Part shown: positions 144 through 9,640 of the stretch, piece by piece
How the letters are laid out: each line of letters starts with the position of its first letter
Position numbering within the stretch: position 1 is the first letter of the stretch
Source: Candidatus Mcinerneyibacteriota bacterium
GTDB lineage: Bacteria > AUK180 > JAQVHJ01
Assembly (NCBI GenBank): GCA_030630935.1
Contig: DAOVMD010000076.1
Location: forward strand, 1 to 10,196
Length of the DNA: 10,196 nucleotides
Reading direction: 5' to 3'
Program-made: the position numbers and the translations under genes
The notes under the pieces: generated by a model
What the model was told of the DNA's origin: nothing
The model's input: only the letters and a program-made list of their open reading frames with translations
The model's database searches: none

Positions 144-809
144 TTGAAAGAGATATCTCCATCGATTTTAAACGCTGATTTATTTAAGATAAAAAAGATT
201 TTTAAATCTTTCGCATCTGCAAACATAAAATCTGTTCATCTTGATATAATGGATGGAGTATTTGTACCGAACATTAGTTTTGGTCCAATGTTGATTAAAC
301 AATTATCAAAATACAAAAAGAATCTCCAATTTATTTCTCACCTTATGATTATCAATCCTGAGAGATACATTGAAGATTTTTATAAAGCCGGGAGTGACGG
401 AATTATAATTCATCAAGAAGCAACGACTCACTTACACAGTACATTATTAAAAATTAAATCTTTCAATATCCGGGCTGGGGTTTCCATTAACCCTTCAACG
501 CCAGTTAGTGTACTTGAGGATGTTCTGGATTTACTTGATGAAGTCCTCATCATGAGTGTTAATCCCGGGTTTGGCGGGCAGAAATTTATTGAGCACAGTT
601 ATCAAAAAATTGAAAAGCTTGTAACTTTATTTGAAGACCACGATAATGAAAACATTGCTATCTCCATTGACGGTGGTGTAAATATTAATAACTTACCGAA
701 GTTATTTAATTATGGAGTTGATGTTGCAATTATTGGTTCTGCAATATTTAAAAATAAGGATTTAGAAAAAACACTTTCAGAGTTTAATAAAATCACTGAG
801 AGAAGGTAG
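144..809 (+). CDS. rpe: Ribulose-phosphate 3-epimerase
   Basis: Interconverts D-ribulose 5-phosphate and D-xylulose 5-phosphate in the cytoplasmic pentose phosphate pathway. The 221-residue length is normal for this TIM-barrel family. Visible family motifs are SPSILNAD at the N-terminus, HLDIMDG with metal ligands H32 and D34, H66 in SHLMI, the phosphate-side loop NPGFGGQ (140-146), and SIDGG with catalytic/metal D176 followed by the phosphate-binding IIGSAIF near 195-201. All four expected metal ligands are present. Two positions depart from the usual pattern: FISHLM where DVHLM is common, and IHQEA where VHAEA is common. The start is TTG at 144, chosen because AAGGAG lies 6 nt upstream and SPSIL follows at the usual distance. 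The gene has its own promoter and is separated from the next gene by 739 bp, so it appears monocistronic here. Confidence 0.97.
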   Translation: MKEISPSILNADLFKIKKIFKSFASANIKSVHLDIMDGVFVPNISFGPMLIKQLSKYKKNLQFISHLMIINPERYIEDFYKAGSDGIIIHQEATTHLHSTLLKIKSFNIRAGVSINPSTPVSVLEDVLDLLDEVLIMSVNPGFGGQKFIEHSYQKIEKLVTLFEDHDNENIAISIDGGVNINNLPKLFNYGVDVAIIGSAIFKNKDLEKTLSEFNKITERR

Positions 810-1548: not shown

Positions 1549-2502
1549 ATGAATAAATTCTTTTTTCCATTTTTGGTTATTCTATTATTTTCAATTCCAA
1601 CTTCTTCAGCAATTTTAATTACAGAAGTTGCTCCGACAGGCGGAGGAGGTTTTGTTGAGGATTGGGTTGAGTTACAAAATACCGGGGCTCTTGGTCAGGA
1701 TTTAACAGGTTGGGCAATTGGAGACCTTGATCCTGATGGTATTCCTGAAACCAGGAGATATGTAATTCCTGCAATAACCTTAGCCGCAGGTCAGCGTCTG
1801 GTAGTCCATTATAAAACCGGCTTGGATGATACAGTCATCAATGATAATAACCCCGGGTACTGGGATCTTTTTGTAAATGGTGCAGAAGATGATCTACCAA
1901 GTACTTATGAAACTGTTGTTTTATTTAATGATTCTAATACAATTGTTGATGCAATTATTTATCAGGTTGCCGATTCAACATATTATGATTCTGATGTAAA
2001 TACAATTGAAGCAGCCGGTGAATGGATTCGGGAACCAACCGAGGAACAGATTGAAGAGAATATTTATTTTGACCCTTTTGTCAGGATCTCAAACGGTTAT
2101 GGAATTAAAAGAATCTCAACAGAAGATTCTAATACTTCAGCAGATTGGGCATTGGTAAAGAAAGCCGAGATGACACCTGGTAGTGATAATCTTTCAATTA
2201 TAATTGGAGATACATTTGATGTTCAGCAGAATTATCCAAACCCATTTATTCCTGGTGAGTATCCGGTTACAAAGATAAAAGTTAATGTTACTGAGTTAGT
2301 GAAACTAAAGATTAAGATTTATGATATTACAGGTGCATTAATAAAAGTTATTGTTGAAGAAGATGATTTTGAACCAGGTCAATATATATTTAGTTGGGAC
2401 GGAATGAATGATAAAGGAAAAGAAGTTCAAAGTGGTACTTTCCTGATTATGGTTACTGATGGAAGTAAAACAAAAATCAAGAAAATGACAATTTTAAGAT
2501 AA
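1549..2502 (+). CDS. Secreted lamin-tail domain protein with C-terminal T9SS-type/FlgD-like sorting tail
   Basis: Exported protein of 317 residues with no enzymatic domain that I recognise. A signal peptide covers residues 1-21 (K3, hydrophobic core FFFPFLVILLF, cleavage after SSA). The mature N-terminus starts at once with a lamin-tail domain (about 22-215): ILITEVAP, then WVELQNTG, then DLTGWAIGD, the usual strand pattern of this Ig-like fold. The C-terminal 90 residues (about 225-317) form a sorting/FlgD-like Ig domain that begins with NYPNPF (228-233), continues with KIKIYDITG and SWDGMNDKG, and ends SGTFLIMVTDG...KKMTILR. In T9SS organisms this tail directs export and is cleaved on surface attachment. 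There is no cysteine. The start has AAGGAGG (1537-1543) 5 nt upstream. It is followed after 13 nt by the barrel-OmpA-SPOR gene and is almost certainly co-transcribed with it. A role as surface cargo or structural partner of that barrel is inference. Confidence 0.92.
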   Translation: MNKFFFPFLVILLFSIPTSSAILITEVAPTGGGGFVEDWVELQNTGALGQDLTGWAIGDLDPDGIPETRRYVIPAITLAAGQRLVVHYKTGLDDTVINDNNPGYWDLFVNGAEDDLPSTYETVVLFNDSNTIVDAIIYQVADSTYYDSDVNTIEAAGEWIREPTEEQIEENIYFDPFVRISNGYGIKRISTEDSNTSADWALVKKAEMTPGSDNLSIIIGDTFDVQQNYPNPFIPGEYPVTKIKVNVTELVKLKIKIYDITGALIKVIVEEDDFEPGQYIFSWDGMNDKGKEVQSGTFLIMVTDGSKTKIKKMTILR

Positions 2503-2515
2503 AATGGAGAGAATA

Positions 2516-4408
2516 ATGAAAAAACTGAAATTCTTAATTTTAATTTTTCTATTAATTTTAATTACTTCTCCTATTTACTCAGTTGAAAGTACTGATAAAG
2601 CCGGGACCTTGCCTTCAGCGGGTTTCCTGAAGATTTCCTTAGATCCACGTGGTTTTGCAATGGCAGAGGCCGGGACAGCATTTGGCGAAACACTTGCTGC
2701 CGGGATTTTTTATAATCCTGCAGCATTAGGAAGGTTAAAGAAGAGTGAATTTTCACTTGGCTCCTTTTACTTTCTTGCACCGGAAATCAATATGGAATAT
2801 GTCGGACTTGCCCAGAACTTTGGAGATATCTTCACGATTGCATTTGGAGTAATTCAATGTGACACAGGTGAACAGGAGAGAACAGATGTTTCGGGTAGTG
2901 TATTAGGAACATTTAATAATAAATCGTCTGCAACATTCTTCTCATTCGGCGGGATGTATGGACCGGGATTCTATTTCGGTTTCGGGATTAAATATATTGA
3001 AGAGAGTCTTGCAGGGAAGTATGGAAAAACAGTCACATCCGATATGGGAATCATTTATATTCCCCCGACTTTTGACCGGCTCGGGTTTGGATTTTCAATG
3101 ATAAATATTCCCATTGCTCAACCTATACAATTTATTGAAGAAAAGACTAAAGTTGGGTCAACTTTTAAACTTGGCTGGTTCATCAAAGCAATTGATTCAG
3201 AAGAGTTAGTCTGGACATTTGTAATGGATAATAATATCCCGTCTGATGGAAGATTTCAACTTAATCTTGGTATGGAATTTAATTTTTATAACTTCCTCTA
3301 TATTAGAGCCGGGGATAAAATTGTCGGTTATGATTTAAATGAAGCGACATTTGGATTTGGTTTAGGACTCAGTGAGGATATGTCCCTGGACTACTCTTAC
3401 TCCACAAGACCTGAGCTGGGTGCAACACATAGATTCGCTTTCACATTGAGATTTGGAAAGCCTAAGGAAGTCAAAGTTGATACTTCAGAACTGGATAAAT
3501 TAAAAAGTGAATTAGATGAAGAGAGAAGGAGACTCGCGGACGAAGATGCGAGAAAGCAGATTGAAGACGAAGCACGGCAAAGACAACTTCTTGCAGATCA
3601 AGAGAAGCAAAGAGAACTCTTAGCAGCCCAGCAGAAATTACTGGAAGAAGAAAGAAAGCGGCTTGAGGACGCGAAATTAAAAGCTTCAGAAGACGAGAAT
3701 ATTGAGATTAGAGAAGATTCAAGAGGATTGGTTCTTAATCTTGTCGGTATAAATTTTGCTTCGGGTTCTGCTGCAATTCCGCAATCAGCATACTCATCTT
3801 TAAATAATGCAGCTTCAATTATTAACTCATATCCTAATGTCCAGATCAGGATTGAAGGACATACAGATTCAATTGGAGCAGAAGCTTTAAATCAGCAATT
3901 ATCTCATAAAAGAGCTGAAGCTGTTAAGAATTATTTCATCCGGAATGCCGGTATTCAAAGAAGTTTAATTTCCGCATTTGGTTATGGTGAATCCAAACCT
4001 ATTGCATCCAACGATACAGAAGACGGAAGGTTTAGAAATAGAAGAGTTGAAATTATTCTTCTAACAGGATCACAGGCTGATTCATATATTGACGCACCTA
4101 CTTATTATGAAGAACCGGCACCATATTACGAACCACCTGAACCAACCTATACAGAACCCGAACCAACTTATGAAAGTTCAAGTGGTGAGTATACCGTATT
4201 TGTCGGGTCGCACAAGACAATTGATGCTGCTAACCGGGAAATTCAAAAATTGCAGTCACTTGGTTATTCTGCTGTTTATGTGAAAGTAAATATCCCGGGT
4301 AAAGGTATTTATTACAGAATTAAAGTTGGGTCTTATGATAAAGAAACAGCTGATCAAATTAAAAGTGACCTTGAATCGAAAGGTATGGGTGCCTGGATAA
4401 AACACTAG
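2516..4408 (+). CDS. PorV-like outer-membrane barrel fused to coiled coil, OmpA peptidoglycan-binding and SPOR domains
   Basis: Envelope protein of 630 residues. In order: signal peptide (1-22, MKKLKF plus a long hydrophobic core); PorV/PorQ (UPF0164) family beta-barrel (about 30-312), with AGFLKISLDPRG and NPAA (67-70) and ending in alternating aromatic strands HRFAFTLRFG; a charged Glu/Lys/Arg/Gln coiled coil (about 323-395); an OmpA-C domain (about 404-518); a Pro/Glu/Tyr-rich linker (about 519-555); and a SPOR domain (about 557-630), with YTVFVGS, LGYSAVYV and YYRIKVGSYD. In the OmpA domain, D451 (GHTD) and R466 (LSHKRAEA) are 15 residues apart, as are the diaminopimelate-binding Asp and Arg of Acinetobacter OmpA, and NRRVEI is present. 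The protein therefore probably spans from outer membrane to peptidoglycan. I chose ATG 2516 because GGAGAG (2506-2511) sits 4 nt upstream and MKK opens a clean signal peptide; an in-frame ATG at 2504 would add four residues and lacks a good site. No frameshift is evident, and the domains read through in one frame. Confidence 0.93.
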   Translation: MKKLKFLILIFLLILITSPIYSVESTDKAGTLPSAGFLKISLDPRGFAMAEAGTAFGETLAAGIFYNPAALGRLKKSEFSLGSFYFLAPEINMEYVGLAQNFGDIFTIAFGVIQCDTGEQERTDVSGSVLGTFNNKSSATFFSFGGMYGPGFYFGFGIKYIEESLAGKYGKTVTSDMGIIYIPPTFDRLGFGFSMINIPIAQPIQFIEEKTKVGSTFKLGWFIKAIDSEELVWTFVMDNNIPSDGRFQLNLGMEFNFYNFLYIRAGDKIVGYDLNEATFGFGLGLSEDMSLDYSYSTRPELGATHRFAFTLRFGKPKEVKVDTSELDKLKSELDEERRRLADEDARKQIEDEARQRQLLADQEKQRELLAAQQKLLEEERKRLEDAKLKASEDENIEIREDSRGLVLNLVGINFASGSAAIPQSAYSSLNNAASIINSYPNVQIRIEGHTDSIGAEALNQQLSHKRAEAVKNYFIRNAGIQRSLISAFGYGESKPIASNDTEDGRFRNRRVEIILLTGSQADSYIDAPTYYEEPAPYYEPPEPTYTEPEPTYESSSGEYTVFVGSHKTIDAANREIQKLQSLGYSAVYVKVNIPGKGIYYRIKVGSYDKETADQIKSDLESKGMGAWIKH

Positions 4409-4648: not shown

Positions 4649-4677
4649 TTGACATTTTAATTATTATATGTTATACT
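4649..4677 (+). promoter_or_regulatory. Sigma-70-type promoter of the PorV-like/modular surface protein unit
   Basis: A perfect TTGACA (4649-4654), a 17-bp spacer and TATACT (4672-4677) form a near-consensus promoter. The start would lie near 4684, giving a leader of about 34 nt that contains AAGGAGG (4704-4710). The same -35 box and spacer length occur upstream of rpe, which suggests the main vegetative sigma factor. A TATAAT also occurs at 4686-4691 but has no good -35 partner. Confidence 0.75.
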
Positions 4678-4717: not shown

Positions 4718-5644
4718 ATGAAGAAGTTTCGTATTTTCTTTTTGCTTTTAACGATACTTGCATTTTCCAGTTCAGTATTTGCAAGTAGTGATGTTGGAAC
4801 AACTGGTGCAGCATTCTTAAAGATTGACATAGGTGCAAGGCCTGCCGGTCTTGGTGATTGTTTTGTTGGAATTGCAGATGATTATAATGCTATTCAATGG
4901 AACCCTGCCGGATTATCCTTTTTAGAAAAGGGTCAGGTTGCATTTATTAGAACTAACTGGTTAGCTGACACAAGTTTCAATGCTTTAAGTTTTGCTTATC
5001 CTTTTAATTTTGGGACATTAGGTTTCAATTGGACCTCTCTAAACTATGGCAGCATAGACGGTTATGATATTTATGGTAACTCAACTGGCAGTTTCACACC
5101 TACTGACACTGCTATCACATTATCATATAGTAAAGAGATCACAAAGGGCTTTTCATTAGGTCTTAATTTAAAACAGATTTCCAGTAAGATTGAATCAGAG
5201 ACTGCTTCTACTCAAGCATTTGATTTTGGGTTATTATATAAACTCGAGATAGCCGGTAACCCATTCAAATTAGGATTCTCAGTTTTAAATATGGGTGGAG
5301 AGATGAAGTTCATTGAAGAGGGAGACCCGCTTCCGACCAATTATCTCTTTGGTTTTTCATATTTAATCTTGAACAATGACACACATTCCGTTCTTGGAGC
5401 AATTGACCTTTCCAAACCGGTCGACAACGACTTCAGAGCAAACCTTGGAGTTGAATACGGCTTCAAGCAAATGTTATTTATCCGACTTGGATACAAAGCT
5501 GCAGGTTATGATATTGAAGGTCTTGCAGCAGGATTTGGTTTTCACTATCCTTTAGGAAAAAACATATTTGGATTTGATTATGCATTTGGAAAGATGGATG
5601 AGATTAATGACGTTCATAGATTCTCTGTCTCATTCCAATTTTAA
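4718..5644 (+). CDS. PorV/PorQ (UPF0164) family outer-membrane beta-barrel protein
   Basis: Predicted outer-membrane barrel of 308 residues. The signal peptide is residues 1-22 (MKKFRIFFLLLTILAF, cleavage after VFA). The mature start GTTGAAFLKIDIGARPAGLGD and the WNPAGLSFL segment with NPAG at 62-65 are signatures of the PorV/PorQ branch of the FadL-like superfamily. The rest is alternating hydrophobic strands with short turns, ending in FSVSFQF; a C-terminal Phe is the usual beta-signal for outer-membrane insertion. It is a paralogue of the barrel part of the upstream fusion: compare FLKIDIGARPAG with FLKISLDPRGFA, and FIRLGYKAAGYDIEG with YIRAGDKIVGYDLNE. In T9SS organisms PorV shuttles cargo to the attachment complex, and here the next gene encodes a sorting-tailed protein. 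AAGGAGG is 7 nt before the ATG. A more general transport role cannot be excluded. Confidence 0.9.
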   Translation: MKKFRIFFLLLTILAFSSSVFASSDVGTTGAAFLKIDIGARPAGLGDCFVGIADDYNAIQWNPAGLSFLEKGQVAFIRTNWLADTSFNALSFAYPFNFGTLGFNWTSLNYGSIDGYDIYGNSTGSFTPTDTAITLSYSKEITKGFSLGLNLKQISSKIESETASTQAFDFGLLYKLEIAGNPFKLGFSVLNMGGEMKFIEEGDPLPTNYLFGFSYLILNNDTHSVLGAIDLSKPVDNDFRANLGVEYGFKQMLFIRLGYKAAGYDIEGLAAGFGFHYPLGKNIFGFDYAFGKMDEINDVHRFSVSFQF

Positions 5645-5737
5645 AATCAGAGATTCAATTTAAGTTAGTACATTAGAAACAAAGTATTTTAAATTTCCAA
5701 ATTTATTAATTAACTCTATTTAACTTCGGAGGGTAGT

Positions 5738-8700
5738 ATGAGAAACAAGTATCTCTCGTTAATAATTTTTATTTCATTACTTCTCTTCTCTTCAATTATT
5801 GTTTCAGCCAATACAGGTAACTCTGGGCATACAATCACAATTGACGGTTTTCAAACTGATTGGGATATTGATGAGAAGATAGAAACATCATCGACTTATT
5901 CAACATTTCCAGGATCAATTTATATAACCTGGAGTTCTACATCATTAACCGTAGGATTAGATAAGTTTCCATTAGGCGATACTCCAGCAACAGATTTCAG
6001 TTTATTTGTTGCAATTGACACTGATCAAACACCGGCATCTGGCGCAGTACTTGACGGATATGGTAGGGTAGCATTCACAAATGCAAATTTCTTGCCAGAA
6101 TATTTCTATTCATTTTCAGGTGCTTCAGGCGCGTATGAATGGGCTGAATGGGGCGGAGCAGTATGGAACTGGAAAGGTTGGCTTAACCACGATTCTTACG
6201 GTGGTTATGTTGGCCAAACCCCGGAAGTATTCTCAGAATTTAATATCTGGTTTTCAAGTCTGAATAACCCGGCCAATATTGCTGTTTATGCATGGGTAAC
6301 GAAGGAAACTGACGCAGATATTCAAGCCGCATTCCCGATTTCCAATCCAACAGGGACTTTACCAAATTTCACAACCCCATATTTATTTAATGGTGTTGAC
6401 GGTTCAAATTCTCACCAGGCACCGTTTCTTGCAGGTGTTTTACCAACTGATTTAATCATTACAGAAGTTCATTATAATCCAGCAACCTGGCAAGGATCGG
6501 ATAATGATTATGAATTTGTTGAGTTTTTTAATAATACAGGTGGAGATATTGATTTAACCGGATATTATCTGGGAACTTTAACTGCAAATATCCCCCTCAC
6601 CGGTACAATATTAGCGAATAATTATGGGGTGGTTGCATTTGATCTTGATGATAGCACTGAGTCTGATGGTCATTACTTCAATGAATTTTATTTTGGACTT
6701 AGTACAGATATAGATTTAATTGATGCAGAGGGAACATATTTCGGTTGCTCTAATACCAGAGAAAATATTTATTTATGGTCTGGTGAAACAGTTGCAAATG
6801 CGATAGTTTTTGATTGTATCTCTTATATAGATGATTGGGACACGTGGGGAGCTGATGGAAAAGGTCCATCAATGGAAAAATTGGTTTATACCACACAAAA
6901 TACTAATGACGATTCACTGGGTGGATTTAACGACCTGAACTGGAATACGGCATCACCTTCTTATGTCTGCGGCACACCGGGCAGGAAAAATTCACAGCCC
7001 TGCGACATAACTTCTACACCAGGCTGGGCAGCCGGTAATGCAAATCTAAATGTTGTTGATCCGGGAAATGATACCACACTTGATCTTACCTGGGATACTG
7101 CTACTGATACAGGTAACTTGACATTATGGTATAATATTTATCGAAGTACAATAACAGGATTCACACCTGCTGCAGGAAATCAGATAGTTACAGGTGTAAT
7201 TCCTGCAAGTTATACTGATACAGGCTTAACCACAGGAACTACTTATTATTATAGAATCCAAGTATTTAACTGCAATGAAACCCAATCTATAAATACTGAT
7301 GAGGGTTCCGGAACTCCAATAGTCTCGGATATCGAAGCCCCGGTCTTTGCAGGAATTCAATCTGCAACTGACCTTGTTCAGTATGATAGGGTTAAATTGG
7401 GTTGGAACTCTGCAAATGACACTGGTGGTTCAACCCCTATTACATATAATATTTATCAATCAACTGTTGCTGCAGGACAAAATTTCACTACACCAAACTA
7501 TACAGTTGTAACATCGACTAAACTTAAAATAACCGGACTTGTTAATAATCAAACATATTATTATGTAATACGGGCAGAAGATAGTTTAGGCAATGAAGAT
7601 ACTAATTCAGTTGAGCTTTCTGTTACCCCAACAGGGACTCAAGTTGCAGGGGCGGCACATTTATTATTATCAGAGATAATTGTCACACCAACAGCCGGTG
7701 AATATATCGAGATTTATAATCCAACCGGTTCAACTATTACATTATCAGATTACTATGTGACTGACGCAACTTACTCAAGCGGTGGTGCATATTATTATAA
7801 TATTGTAACAGGAGCAGATTACGGGGGCGGCGGATTTGGAGATTTCAATGCACGATTCCCGGACGGAGCCACAATTGCAGCGCTTGAATACCAGACCATT
7901 GCGATTGCCGGTTCTGATGATTTCTATAGCGAATTCGGTTTAACCCCGACCTATGAATTATATGAAGATGGGGTACCTGATGCTATTCCTGATATGCGTG
8001 AAGCTGTAGCAGGAAGTATTAATAATCAGGGAGGTTTAACAAATAGTGGTGAGATTGTTATCTTATATTATTGGGATGGGATTGATGATCTTGTAATTGA
8101 TATTGACTATGCAGTTTGGGGAGATAAAGATGAGGCGGTTGATAAAACCGGAATCGCAATCGACAGTATAACCGATGCAGATACCTTAACAACTACATTT
8201 GAAGATGATACTCTAATTGCAGACCAGGACGCTTTACATACTTCCGGTCATTTGTTTGGATATTCTTTCAGCCGAATTGATATGACGGAAGGTACAGAAA
8301 TTAAATGGTTTAGCAATGGTATTACTAAACATGACGAGACTAGTGAAAACTTATCAGTTACCTGGAATCGGTTCTATGTGCCTTCACCTAATTTGTCTGT
8401 TAATTCAATTTGGGGAAATGTAGTTGATATTGACACCAGTACCGGTCAGAATAATGTGGATATAAATTTCTATCAAGCTAATGATATTGTTGATATGCTT
8501 GATGGTGCACCATATATAGGTTCTGCCAGAACTGATGCAAATGGTGATTATTCATATTCCAATCTTACAGCCGGAGTAACATATACACTAATCATTTCTG
8601 TTGATCAGGATGGTTATTCAATGTCTTTATTCGACCTCGCAACTGATGTATACTCGAAACCAGCACCAAATAGAATTGATGGTAGATTAGTTGATCCTGT

Positions 8701-9640
8701 CGTTCCAATTGCACCAGTTCACTATGGTTCATTCAATAACGGAACTCCTACATTCACCTGGAATCAATATACAGGAAATGCAATAACTGACCCGACTCTA
8801 CCAGCCGGTCCCGCAACAGCAAATATGTATTCAATTATGATCTGGGATATCGTAGACGGAACAATTGACCAGGTAGTTCTTGACGACATAACTCTTAATA
8901 CTACATATACTGTTATTGCATCATCTGCATTAGTCGATGGGCCTTATGCTTATGAAGTTGCAGTTTGGGATTCGAACTATGCAGGGTTAGGTGATGCAGT
9001 ACCATTCGCCTGGTTTGATTATCATAATGTATTTTATATTGCTCAAAACCCGCCAAGTGTAGATGCTGCAGATATAGTCGCAAGTAACCAGGTCGATGTA
9101 ACATTCAGCGAGACTGTTAAAGTAACTACTGCAAATTCTACCACGAACTACATTGTTGCACCGGGAAATATCGTCCCAACTTCTGCAGTTCGTGATTCAA
9201 CAAACTTCGACCTTGTACGGTTAACTTTTGCTGATGACTTTACTCCTAATACATATACATTAACAGTCACAGATGTTACTGATCAGGATGATTTACCTGT
9301 ACAATTATCAGGTCAATATACTGCTCAATTTGTAATCGAACAACCAGTTACTGATGATTGGCCATTGAACTTAGATGATTTAATCGTATATCCAAATCCT
9401 GCAAAAAGTGCAACGATTGTTACATTTAAAAACCTGACAAAAGAAGGCGAAATTAAAATTTATACAATCGCCGGAGAACTCGTTTTTACAATTAAGTATG
9501 ACGAGAATGATAATGGAGTTGTAACCTGGGATATTAAGAATGAAGACGGTACAAAAATCTCTTCAGGAGTTTATATCTATTTTGCAGACGATTCAGCAAA
9601 TGGAACAACGATAGTTGGAAAGATTGCAATTATTAAATAG
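5738..9640 (+). CDS. Large modular secreted surface protein with two lamin-tail domains, two FnIII domains and a T9SS-type sorting tail
   Basis: Exported protein of 1300 residues. Signal peptide 1-24 (cleavage after VSA). An N-terminal beta-rich module (about 31-230), opening ITIDG...DW (D36, W42) and rich in Trp and Tyr, resembles CBM9/DOMON-like sugar-binding folds, but weakly. Lamin-tail 1 (about 236-421) has LIITEVHYNP, EFVEFFNNTG and DLTGYYLG and closes with GTPGRKNS. Two fibronectin type III domains follow (about 427-530 and 531-634; YYYRIQVF and YYYVIRAEDS). Lamin-tail 2 (about 640-884) has LLLSEIIVTP and EYIEIYNPTG. Next come a carboxypeptidase-regulatory-like domain (about 889-961; GNVVD, TDANGDYSYSNL), an Ig-like stretch (about 988-1100), and a second with a VDVTFSETV motif (about 1105-1200). 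The sorting domain (about 1211-1300) starts YPNPAKSA (1218) and ends SGVYIYF...GKIAIIK. Its five cysteines (337, 360, 411, 422, 512) lie only in lamin-tail 1 and FnIII 1. GGAGGG (5728-5733) precedes the ATG. The 93-bp gap after the PorV-like gene has no clear promoter, so the two probably share a transcript. I see no catalytic motif; adhesion or scaffold is inferred. Confidence 0.93.
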   Translation: MRNKYLSLIIFISLLLFSSIIVSANTGNSGHTITIDGFQTDWDIDEKIETSSTYSTFPGSIYITWSSTSLTVGLDKFPLGDTPATDFSLFVAIDTDQTPASGAVLDGYGRVAFTNANFLPEYFYSFSGASGAYEWAEWGGAVWNWKGWLNHDSYGGYVGQTPEVFSEFNIWFSSLNNPANIAVYAWVTKETDADIQAAFPISNPTGTLPNFTTPYLFNGVDGSNSHQAPFLAGVLPTDLIITEVHYNPATWQGSDNDYEFVEFFNNTGGDIDLTGYYLGTLTANIPLTGTILANNYGVVAFDLDDSTESDGHYFNEFYFGLSTDIDLIDAEGTYFGCSNTRENIYLWSGETVANAIVFDCISYIDDWDTWGADGKGPSMEKLVYTTQNTNDDSLGGFNDLNWNTASPSYVCGTPGRKNSQPCDITSTPGWAAGNANLNVVDPGNDTTLDLTWDTATDTGNLTLWYNIYRSTITGFTPAAGNQIVTGVIPASYTDTGLTTGTTYYYRIQVFNCNETQSINTDEGSGTPIVSDIEAPVFAGIQSATDLVQYDRVKLGWNSANDTGGSTPITYNIYQSTVAAGQNFTTPNYTVVTSTKLKITGLVNNQTYYYVIRAEDSLGNEDTNSVELSVTPTGTQVAGAAHLLLSEIIVTPTAGEYIEIYNPTGSTITLSDYYVTDATYSSGGAYYYNIVTGADYGGGGFGDFNARFPDGATIAALEYQTIAIAGSDDFYSEFGLTPTYELYEDGVPDAIPDMREAVAGSINNQGGLTNSGEIVILYYWDGIDDLVIDIDYAVWGDKDEAVDKTGIAIDSITDADTLTTTFEDDTLIADQDALHTSGHLFGYSFSRIDMTEGTEIKWFSNGITKHDETSENLSVTWNRFYVPSPNLSVNSIWGNVVDIDTSTGQNNVDINFYQANDIVDMLDGAPYIGSARTDANGDYSYSNLTAGVTYTLIISVDQDGYSMSLFDLATDVYSKPAPNRIDGRLVDPVVPIAPVHYGSFNNGTPTFTWNQYTGNAITDPTLPAGPATANMYSIMIWDIVDGTIDQVVLDDITLNTTYTVIASSALVDGPYAYEVAVWDSNYAGLGDAVPFAWFDYHNVFYIAQNPPSVDAADIVASNQVDVTFSETVKVTTANSTTNYIVAPGNIVPTSAVRDSTNFDLVRLTFADDFTPNTYTLTVTDVTDQDDLPVQLSGQYTAQFVIEQPVTDDWPLNLDDLIVYPNPAKSATIVTFKNLTKEGEIKIYTIAGELVFTIKYDENDNGVVTWDIKNEDGTKISSGVYIYFADDSANGTTIVGKIAIIK

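Follow-up and report, generated by a model that had tools for sequence, protein, structure and literature searches.

A single open frame in the window, by which we mean the whole stretch of DNA analysed, an entire contig of 10,196 nucleotides, encodes a PorV-family barrel, a helical stalk, an OmpA domain and a SPOR domain in one chain, and this four-module architecture is real and conserved. The frame spans positions 2504–4408 and begins at ATG 2504 or, more likely, at ATG 2516 (Table 1); the source genome is in 471 contigs and 80% complete. The preliminary description had recognised four modules in this frame, a reading now borne out by hmmscan, by AlphaFold2 and by seven genomes that keep the modules in the same order. 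Conservation was followed across these seven genomes of the phylum, all from one class and two families, each of which has a single orthologue of the fusion. A chance fusion or assembly artefact was considered and is ruled out, as the gene is in frame in all seven, the six relatives align with the window's protein at 40–73% identity, and the barrels form one clade. No published description of a barrel-OmpA-SPOR architecture was found in our literature search, and the earlier statement that no characterised protein has this architecture stands for the literature covered. Searches of viral collections yielded a single match, to an OmpA domain.

Table 1. Features of the window (positions count from its first nucleotide; residues are those of the encoded fusion protein).
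Feature	Position	Strand	Basis
rpe, ribulose-phosphate 3-epimerase	144..809	+	TIGR01163 229.9 bits; syntenic upstream marker in phylum
Likely cargo: LTD domain and T9SS/FlgD-type C-terminal sorting tail (tail 2233-2493)	1549..2502	+	PF00932 47.8, PF13860 31.5, TIGR04183 26.5 bits
PorV-family barrel, stalk, OmpA and SPOR protein, 630 aa	2516..4408	+	Seven full-length orthologues including its own
14-strand FadL/PorV-type barrel, residues 35-313 (predicted)	2618..3454	+	NF033709 105.5 bits; predicted model
Helical stalk, residues 323-390 (predicted)	3482..3685	+	Predicted model and alignment
OmpA peptidoglycan-binding domain, residues 414-509	3755..4042	+	PF00691 81.8 bits
SPOR domain, residues 556-628	4181..4399	+	PF05036 36.3 bits; predicted model
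Promoter-like site	4649..4677	+	11/12 matches; consensus match only
Stand-alone PorV/PorQ-family barrel, second shuttle-type gene	4718..5644	+	NF033709 214.3 bits
Large LTD/fn3 protein, sorting tail about 9386-9607; likely cargo of second barrel	5738..9640	+	Profile matches

Structure prediction had been set beforehand as a check on this reading, and both the barrel strands and the separate OmpA and SPOR folds are predicted. The AlphaFold2 model of the full-length protein, made from a four-sequence alignment, has strands at residues 78–313, a single helix at 323–390, an OmpA fold at 396–516, a low-confidence linker at 526–555 and a SPOR fold at 559–629, with the disordered linker separating OmpA from SPOR. 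The helix, 68 residues long, corresponds to the coiled coil of about 70 residues proposed earlier, and the alignment shows that the stalk is longer in the phylum's other family than in that of the window. Foldseek matches to the full-length model were filled by OmpA domains. The OmpA domain carries three ligands for the peptide stem, Asp451, Asn459 and Arg466, invariant in all seven orthologues; the first and last had already been pointed out. In identity and in spacing (Asp, Asn at +8, Arg at +15) they equal Asp576, Asn584 and Arg591 of PorE (PMC7192894). Judged by its model match and its intact Asp/Asn/Arg diaminopimelate ligands, the OmpA domain is genuine.

The barrel matches the PorV/PorQ family model NF033709 over residues 35–313 with an E-value of 3.9e-30 in hmmscan, above the curated cut-off of 90 bits. 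The equivalog models NF033710 and NF033711 (cut-offs 250 and 220) are absent from the 25 best-scoring NCBIfam models for the fusion, the weakest of which scores 47 bits, and one orthologue (L009) reaches only 60 bits with the PorQ equivalog. We conclude from these profile matches that the barrel belongs to the PorV/PorQ family but lies outside the PorV and PorQ equivalogs. The PorV/PorQ-type barrel placed earlier at residues 30–312 is in this way confirmed, with a FadL/PorV fold of 14 predicted strands, but its UPF0164 label is not: Pfam UPF0164 gives no match to the fusion and matches instead the neighbouring stand-alone barrel. Modelled alone, the barrel has exactly 14 strands at a pLDDT of about 60; the strand count is a prediction, to which family membership lends support. 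Comparison with solved chains by VIA-align 2 gives Z-scores of 23–24, all tied, for FadL/CymD and for the T9SS PorV chains 8gl6_F and 6h3i_F. In a tree of 48 barrels the seven fusion barrels form one clade (support 100/99).

The C-terminal domain scores above the PF05036 cut-off of 21 bits, and residues 559–629 are predicted with a pLDDT of about 90 to adopt a β-α-β-β-α-β fold, in agreement with the SPOR domain earlier assigned to residues 557–630. In the structure of an RlpA complex, one Gln (Gln270) and a basic patch (Arg309, Arg311 and Arg302) touch denuded glycan through their side chains, many further contacts come from the backbone, and the equivalent Gln is important for the septal localisation of FtsN and DamX (PMC6895207). 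Phe562 occupies this position in the fusion, and Phe, Tyr or Cys does so in all seven orthologues. The basic-patch residues Arg601 and Lys603 are kept in all seven, but the loop expected to carry the equivalent of RlpA Arg302 varies among them. Of the other SPOR domains collected from the phylum, 25 of 27 have the Gln, and SPOR proteins that bear it are found beside the fusion in every genome of the phylum examined; the difference (Fisher p 7e-6) is descriptive only, as the seven fusion domains are one family. Six of the seven genomes encode one Amidase_3, which is able to make denuded glycan, so that denuded glycan should be available. The domain is thus a SPOR domain by model match and predicted fold, without the Gln of the known glycan-binding mode, and it probably binds its ligand in some way other than the standard denuded-glycan mode. 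Because much SPOR binding is by backbone, it may nonetheless still bind glycan.

In all seven genomes a gap of 3–13 bp separates the fusion gene from the gene upstream of it, which encodes a secreted sorting-tail protein of about 310 residues, globally alignable across the set, with one copy cut by a contig end. FlgD_ig is above cut-off in five of the seven upstream proteins; for LTD, two of the proteins exceed the cut-off, two others match weakly and no match is reported for the remainder. Their tails are weak, with TIGR04183 scores of 19–26 bits; for L009 and L010 no such match is reported, and FlgD_ig gives 22 bits. The gene downstream of the fusion differs between the two families, being either a PorV barrel or a TPR protein, and the conserved unit is therefore the tail protein together with the fusion. 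The rpe gene further upstream is probably unrelated to the fusion in function. In the window the second barrel gene has a strong promoter-like site of its own and is followed by the gene for a tail-bearing protein of 1300 residues, so that the window presents two barrel-cargo pairs; the stretch 4718–9640 would form a separate unit if the promoter-like site acts.

SprA homologues were found in all seven genomes, above the curated cut-off in three and with one confirmed at 214.9 bits; two SprA-type translocons (L172:6752-12034 and L173:6399-11780) are about 1760–1790 residues long. Sorting-tail matches number 27–43 per genome, with scores above cut-off in all seven, and PorV-family barrels number 6–14 per genome at an E-value of 0.001. 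By their profile matches, then, the SprA translocon and the sorting-tail proteins of T9SS are both encoded in this phylum. Furthermore, PorV-family genes adjoin same-strand tail genes more often than chance: among the matches listed, at least 8 of 47 PorV-family genes above cut-off have such a gene within 700 b (expected 0.47) and at least 17 of 47 have a same-strand tail end within 5 kb (expected 2.1), orthologous loci being counted per genome and hence non-independent. C25 sortase-type peptidases occur only in the window's family, with none in five of the seven genomes. The GldM profile matched nothing in the genomes of the phylum, and nothing in the control genomes either.

The design is not confined to one phylum, an idea that was considered and ruled out by barrel-Ig-OmpA-SPOR and barrel-Ig-SPOR proteins in a second phylum, that of genome G322 (84 genomes). 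There the modules follow the same order, with Ig domains where the stalk would be (for example L250, L251, L253, L260 and L263). Proteins of the barrel-Ig-SPOR type without OmpA (L255-L259, L261, L264-L269) appear to outnumber those with OmpA there. Its barrels score 52–66 bits for the PorV family, significant yet under cut-off, and the G322 barrel falls on a long branch with an unresolved position in the barrel tree. An hhalign comparison of the window's family with this group is collinear over barrel, OmpA and SPOR (E 6e-50), most clearly in the OmpA stretch. The SPOR Gln is replaced by Met, Leu or Ser in all 20 proteins examined from this phylum. In another genome, G051, a PorV-OmpA protein carries AMIN as its last domain instead (34.2 bits against a cut-off of 20.5), and its gene lies 32 bp after a tail-bearing gene, the tail match being weak (17.7 bits, under cut-off). 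These domain matches indicate that barrels of this kind have retained or acquired a second wall module, one of septal type, on more than one occasion.

Simpler and different combinations were also seen. Most proteins from a profile search of contig collections had OmpA alone, and a single one, from Candidatus Desantisbacteria (L037:6001-7455), joined PorV and OmpA; PorV-OmpA proteins without SPOR occur in several lineages, being found also at L162, L164 and L015. In L160:170-1627, L163:188-1651 and L165:441-1919 (G000:C41, G001:C137 and G004:C11) a barrel-like N-terminus, matching the PorV family at 88.5 bits in L160, just below 90, and weakly in L165, is joined to two ComEA-like helix-hairpin-helix modules. 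These proteins, found in both families of the phylum, may serve in DNA uptake as an outer-membrane receptor. Five proteins of two genomes (L166, L168, L167, L170 and L169, from G002 and G003) combine a PorV-like barrel with a CsgG/LpoB-like domain, called by Pfam in L166, L169 and L170 and by eye in L167 and L168, with Ig-like domains between the two in L169. In a protein of 985 residues (L161:1377-4331, G000:C212) TPR repeats both interrupt and follow a PorV-like barrel. In this phylum, barrels of this type seem to serve quite generally to carry periplasmic modules.

We interpret the fusion, with a little more confidence than doubt, as a PorP/SprF-type shuttle and a PorE-type anchor in one chain, holding a cognate cargo on the cell surface and tethered to peptidoglycan. 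The product of the upstream gene would cross the outer membrane through the SprA translocon, its sorting tail would be received by the FadL/PorV-type barrel in that membrane, and the cargo would remain bound at the surface. The stalk and OmpA domain would reach down to bind peptide stems of peptidoglycan and so fix the complex, with the SPOR domain contacting the wall at a second point or supplying a cue to position. This interpretation draws on the PorV/PorQ score, the predicted 14-strand FadL/PorV fold and the upstream tail gene in all seven genomes; on the presence of SprA and sorting tails, the adjacency of barrel and tail genes and the intact OmpA ligands; and on the tail gene beside the AMIN-bearing relative. 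It also has a precedent. In P. gingivalis one complex contains the FadL-family barrel PorP, the OmpA-domain protein PorE and, as type B cargo, PG1035; the authors propose that a static cargo is fixed to the wall via barrel and PorE (PMC9143113). In five operons of F. johnsoniae an SprF-like shuttle is encoded together with a type B cargo and a homologue of PorE (PMC12618676). Against it, the barrel fold is no closer to PorV than to FadL transporters, the barrel is not an orthodox PorV/PorQ equivalog, the upstream tails are weak, GldM is unmatched (as in the controls) and C25 peptidases are restricted to one of two families. Of the two functions suggested in the preliminary description, anchoring of a secretion shuttle to the wall gains from the SprA homologues, the tails, the operon in seven of seven genomes and the OmpA ligands. 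Sensing of septal peptidoglycan is possible but weakened, since the Gln that contacts denuded glycan is missing from the SPOR domain, though the basic-patch Arg and the fold are kept.

A different role, in which the barrel serves merely to anchor the protein in the membrane and its OmpA and SPOR domains fasten the outer membrane to the peptidoglycan of the septum during envelope constriction or for stability, partly replacing Tol-Pal, seems unlikely to us. It would suit the single orthologue per genome, the single Amidase_3 in six of the seven genomes, the recurrence of septal-type modules (SPOR or AMIN) on such barrels, and the TolB searches, in which none of the seven genomes scored above the TIGR02800 cut-off and only partial propeller matches were obtained. 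It is opposed by the loss of the SPOR Gln from all seven orthologues and from 20 of 20 proteins in the second phylum, by the operon, whose conserved partner gene is of cargo type and not a division gene, and by the other, Gln-bearing SPOR proteins in every genome.

Two further roles rest on the kinship of the barrel. The tied fold matches to FadL, TodX, CymD and PorV, together with an NPA-type hatch motif at residues 67–69 and a Toluene_X match (21.1 bits, though under cut-off), would fit a channel of the FadL kind that takes up hydrophobic molecules and is held to the wall through its periplasmic domains; the PorV/PorQ model nevertheless matches far better (105.5 bits, above cut-off) and the gene conserved next to the fusion is for a secreted tail protein and not for metabolism, which makes such a channel distinctly improbable. 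We give still less weight to a BAM-accessory barrel with built-in wall anchors, similar to BamG, a FadL-family barrel of the Bacteroidota BAM complex. Among seven other FCB phyla, six are reported to have a BAM complex resembling that of Bacteroidota (PMC12611786), and the barrel model does match barrel chains of three Bacteroidota BAM entries, but with Z-scores of 19–20, below those to PorV and FadL; moreover, no bam gene is nearby and barrel paralogues are numerous.

If the shuttle and the wall anchor are indeed united here, the fusion offers a testable single-protein form of the proposed complex of cargo, shuttle barrel and anchor, which as a three-protein assembly is still partly speculative in Bacteroidota. 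Together with SprA it would also place a T9SS-like set outside Bacteroidota, to which recent papers confine T9SS. We suggest, as a tentative and on balance doubtful generalisation, that T9SS-like systems outside Bacteroidota have built shuttle and wall anchor into one chain, and that the barrel-borne SPOR domains without Gln form a subclass in at least two phyla that reads another ligand, either a wall feature or a protein. Such a group would test how far SPOR means binding to denuded septal glycan.

Comparison with known systems places the fusion closest to the set of PorP/SprF, PorE and type B cargo, with which it shares the FadL-family barrel, predicted here with 14 strands, the Asp/Asn/Arg ligands of the OmpA domain and the cargo-type gene alongside. 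In the fusion, however, barrel and anchor are one chain, a SPOR domain is added, the barrel is of the PorV family by sequence and not PorP, and the TPR, propeller and lipid anchor of PorE are missing. With the T9SS shuttle PorV it has in common the NF033709 family model, the predicted fold and an SprA in the genome, whereas PorV lacks both periplasmic domains, OmpA and SPOR, and the fusion misses the PorV equivalog model. Like the OmpA and OprF porins it joins an outer-membrane barrel to a C-terminal OmpA domain as a wall tether, but its barrel is of the predicted 14-strand FadL type and a helical stalk and SPOR domain are added. Its SPOR domain resembles those of FtsN, DamX and RlpA in sequence model, predicted fold and basic-patch Arg, and differs in that their Gln (Gln251, Gln351 and Gln270) is replaced by Phe, Tyr or Cys and in being carried by an outer-membrane barrel.
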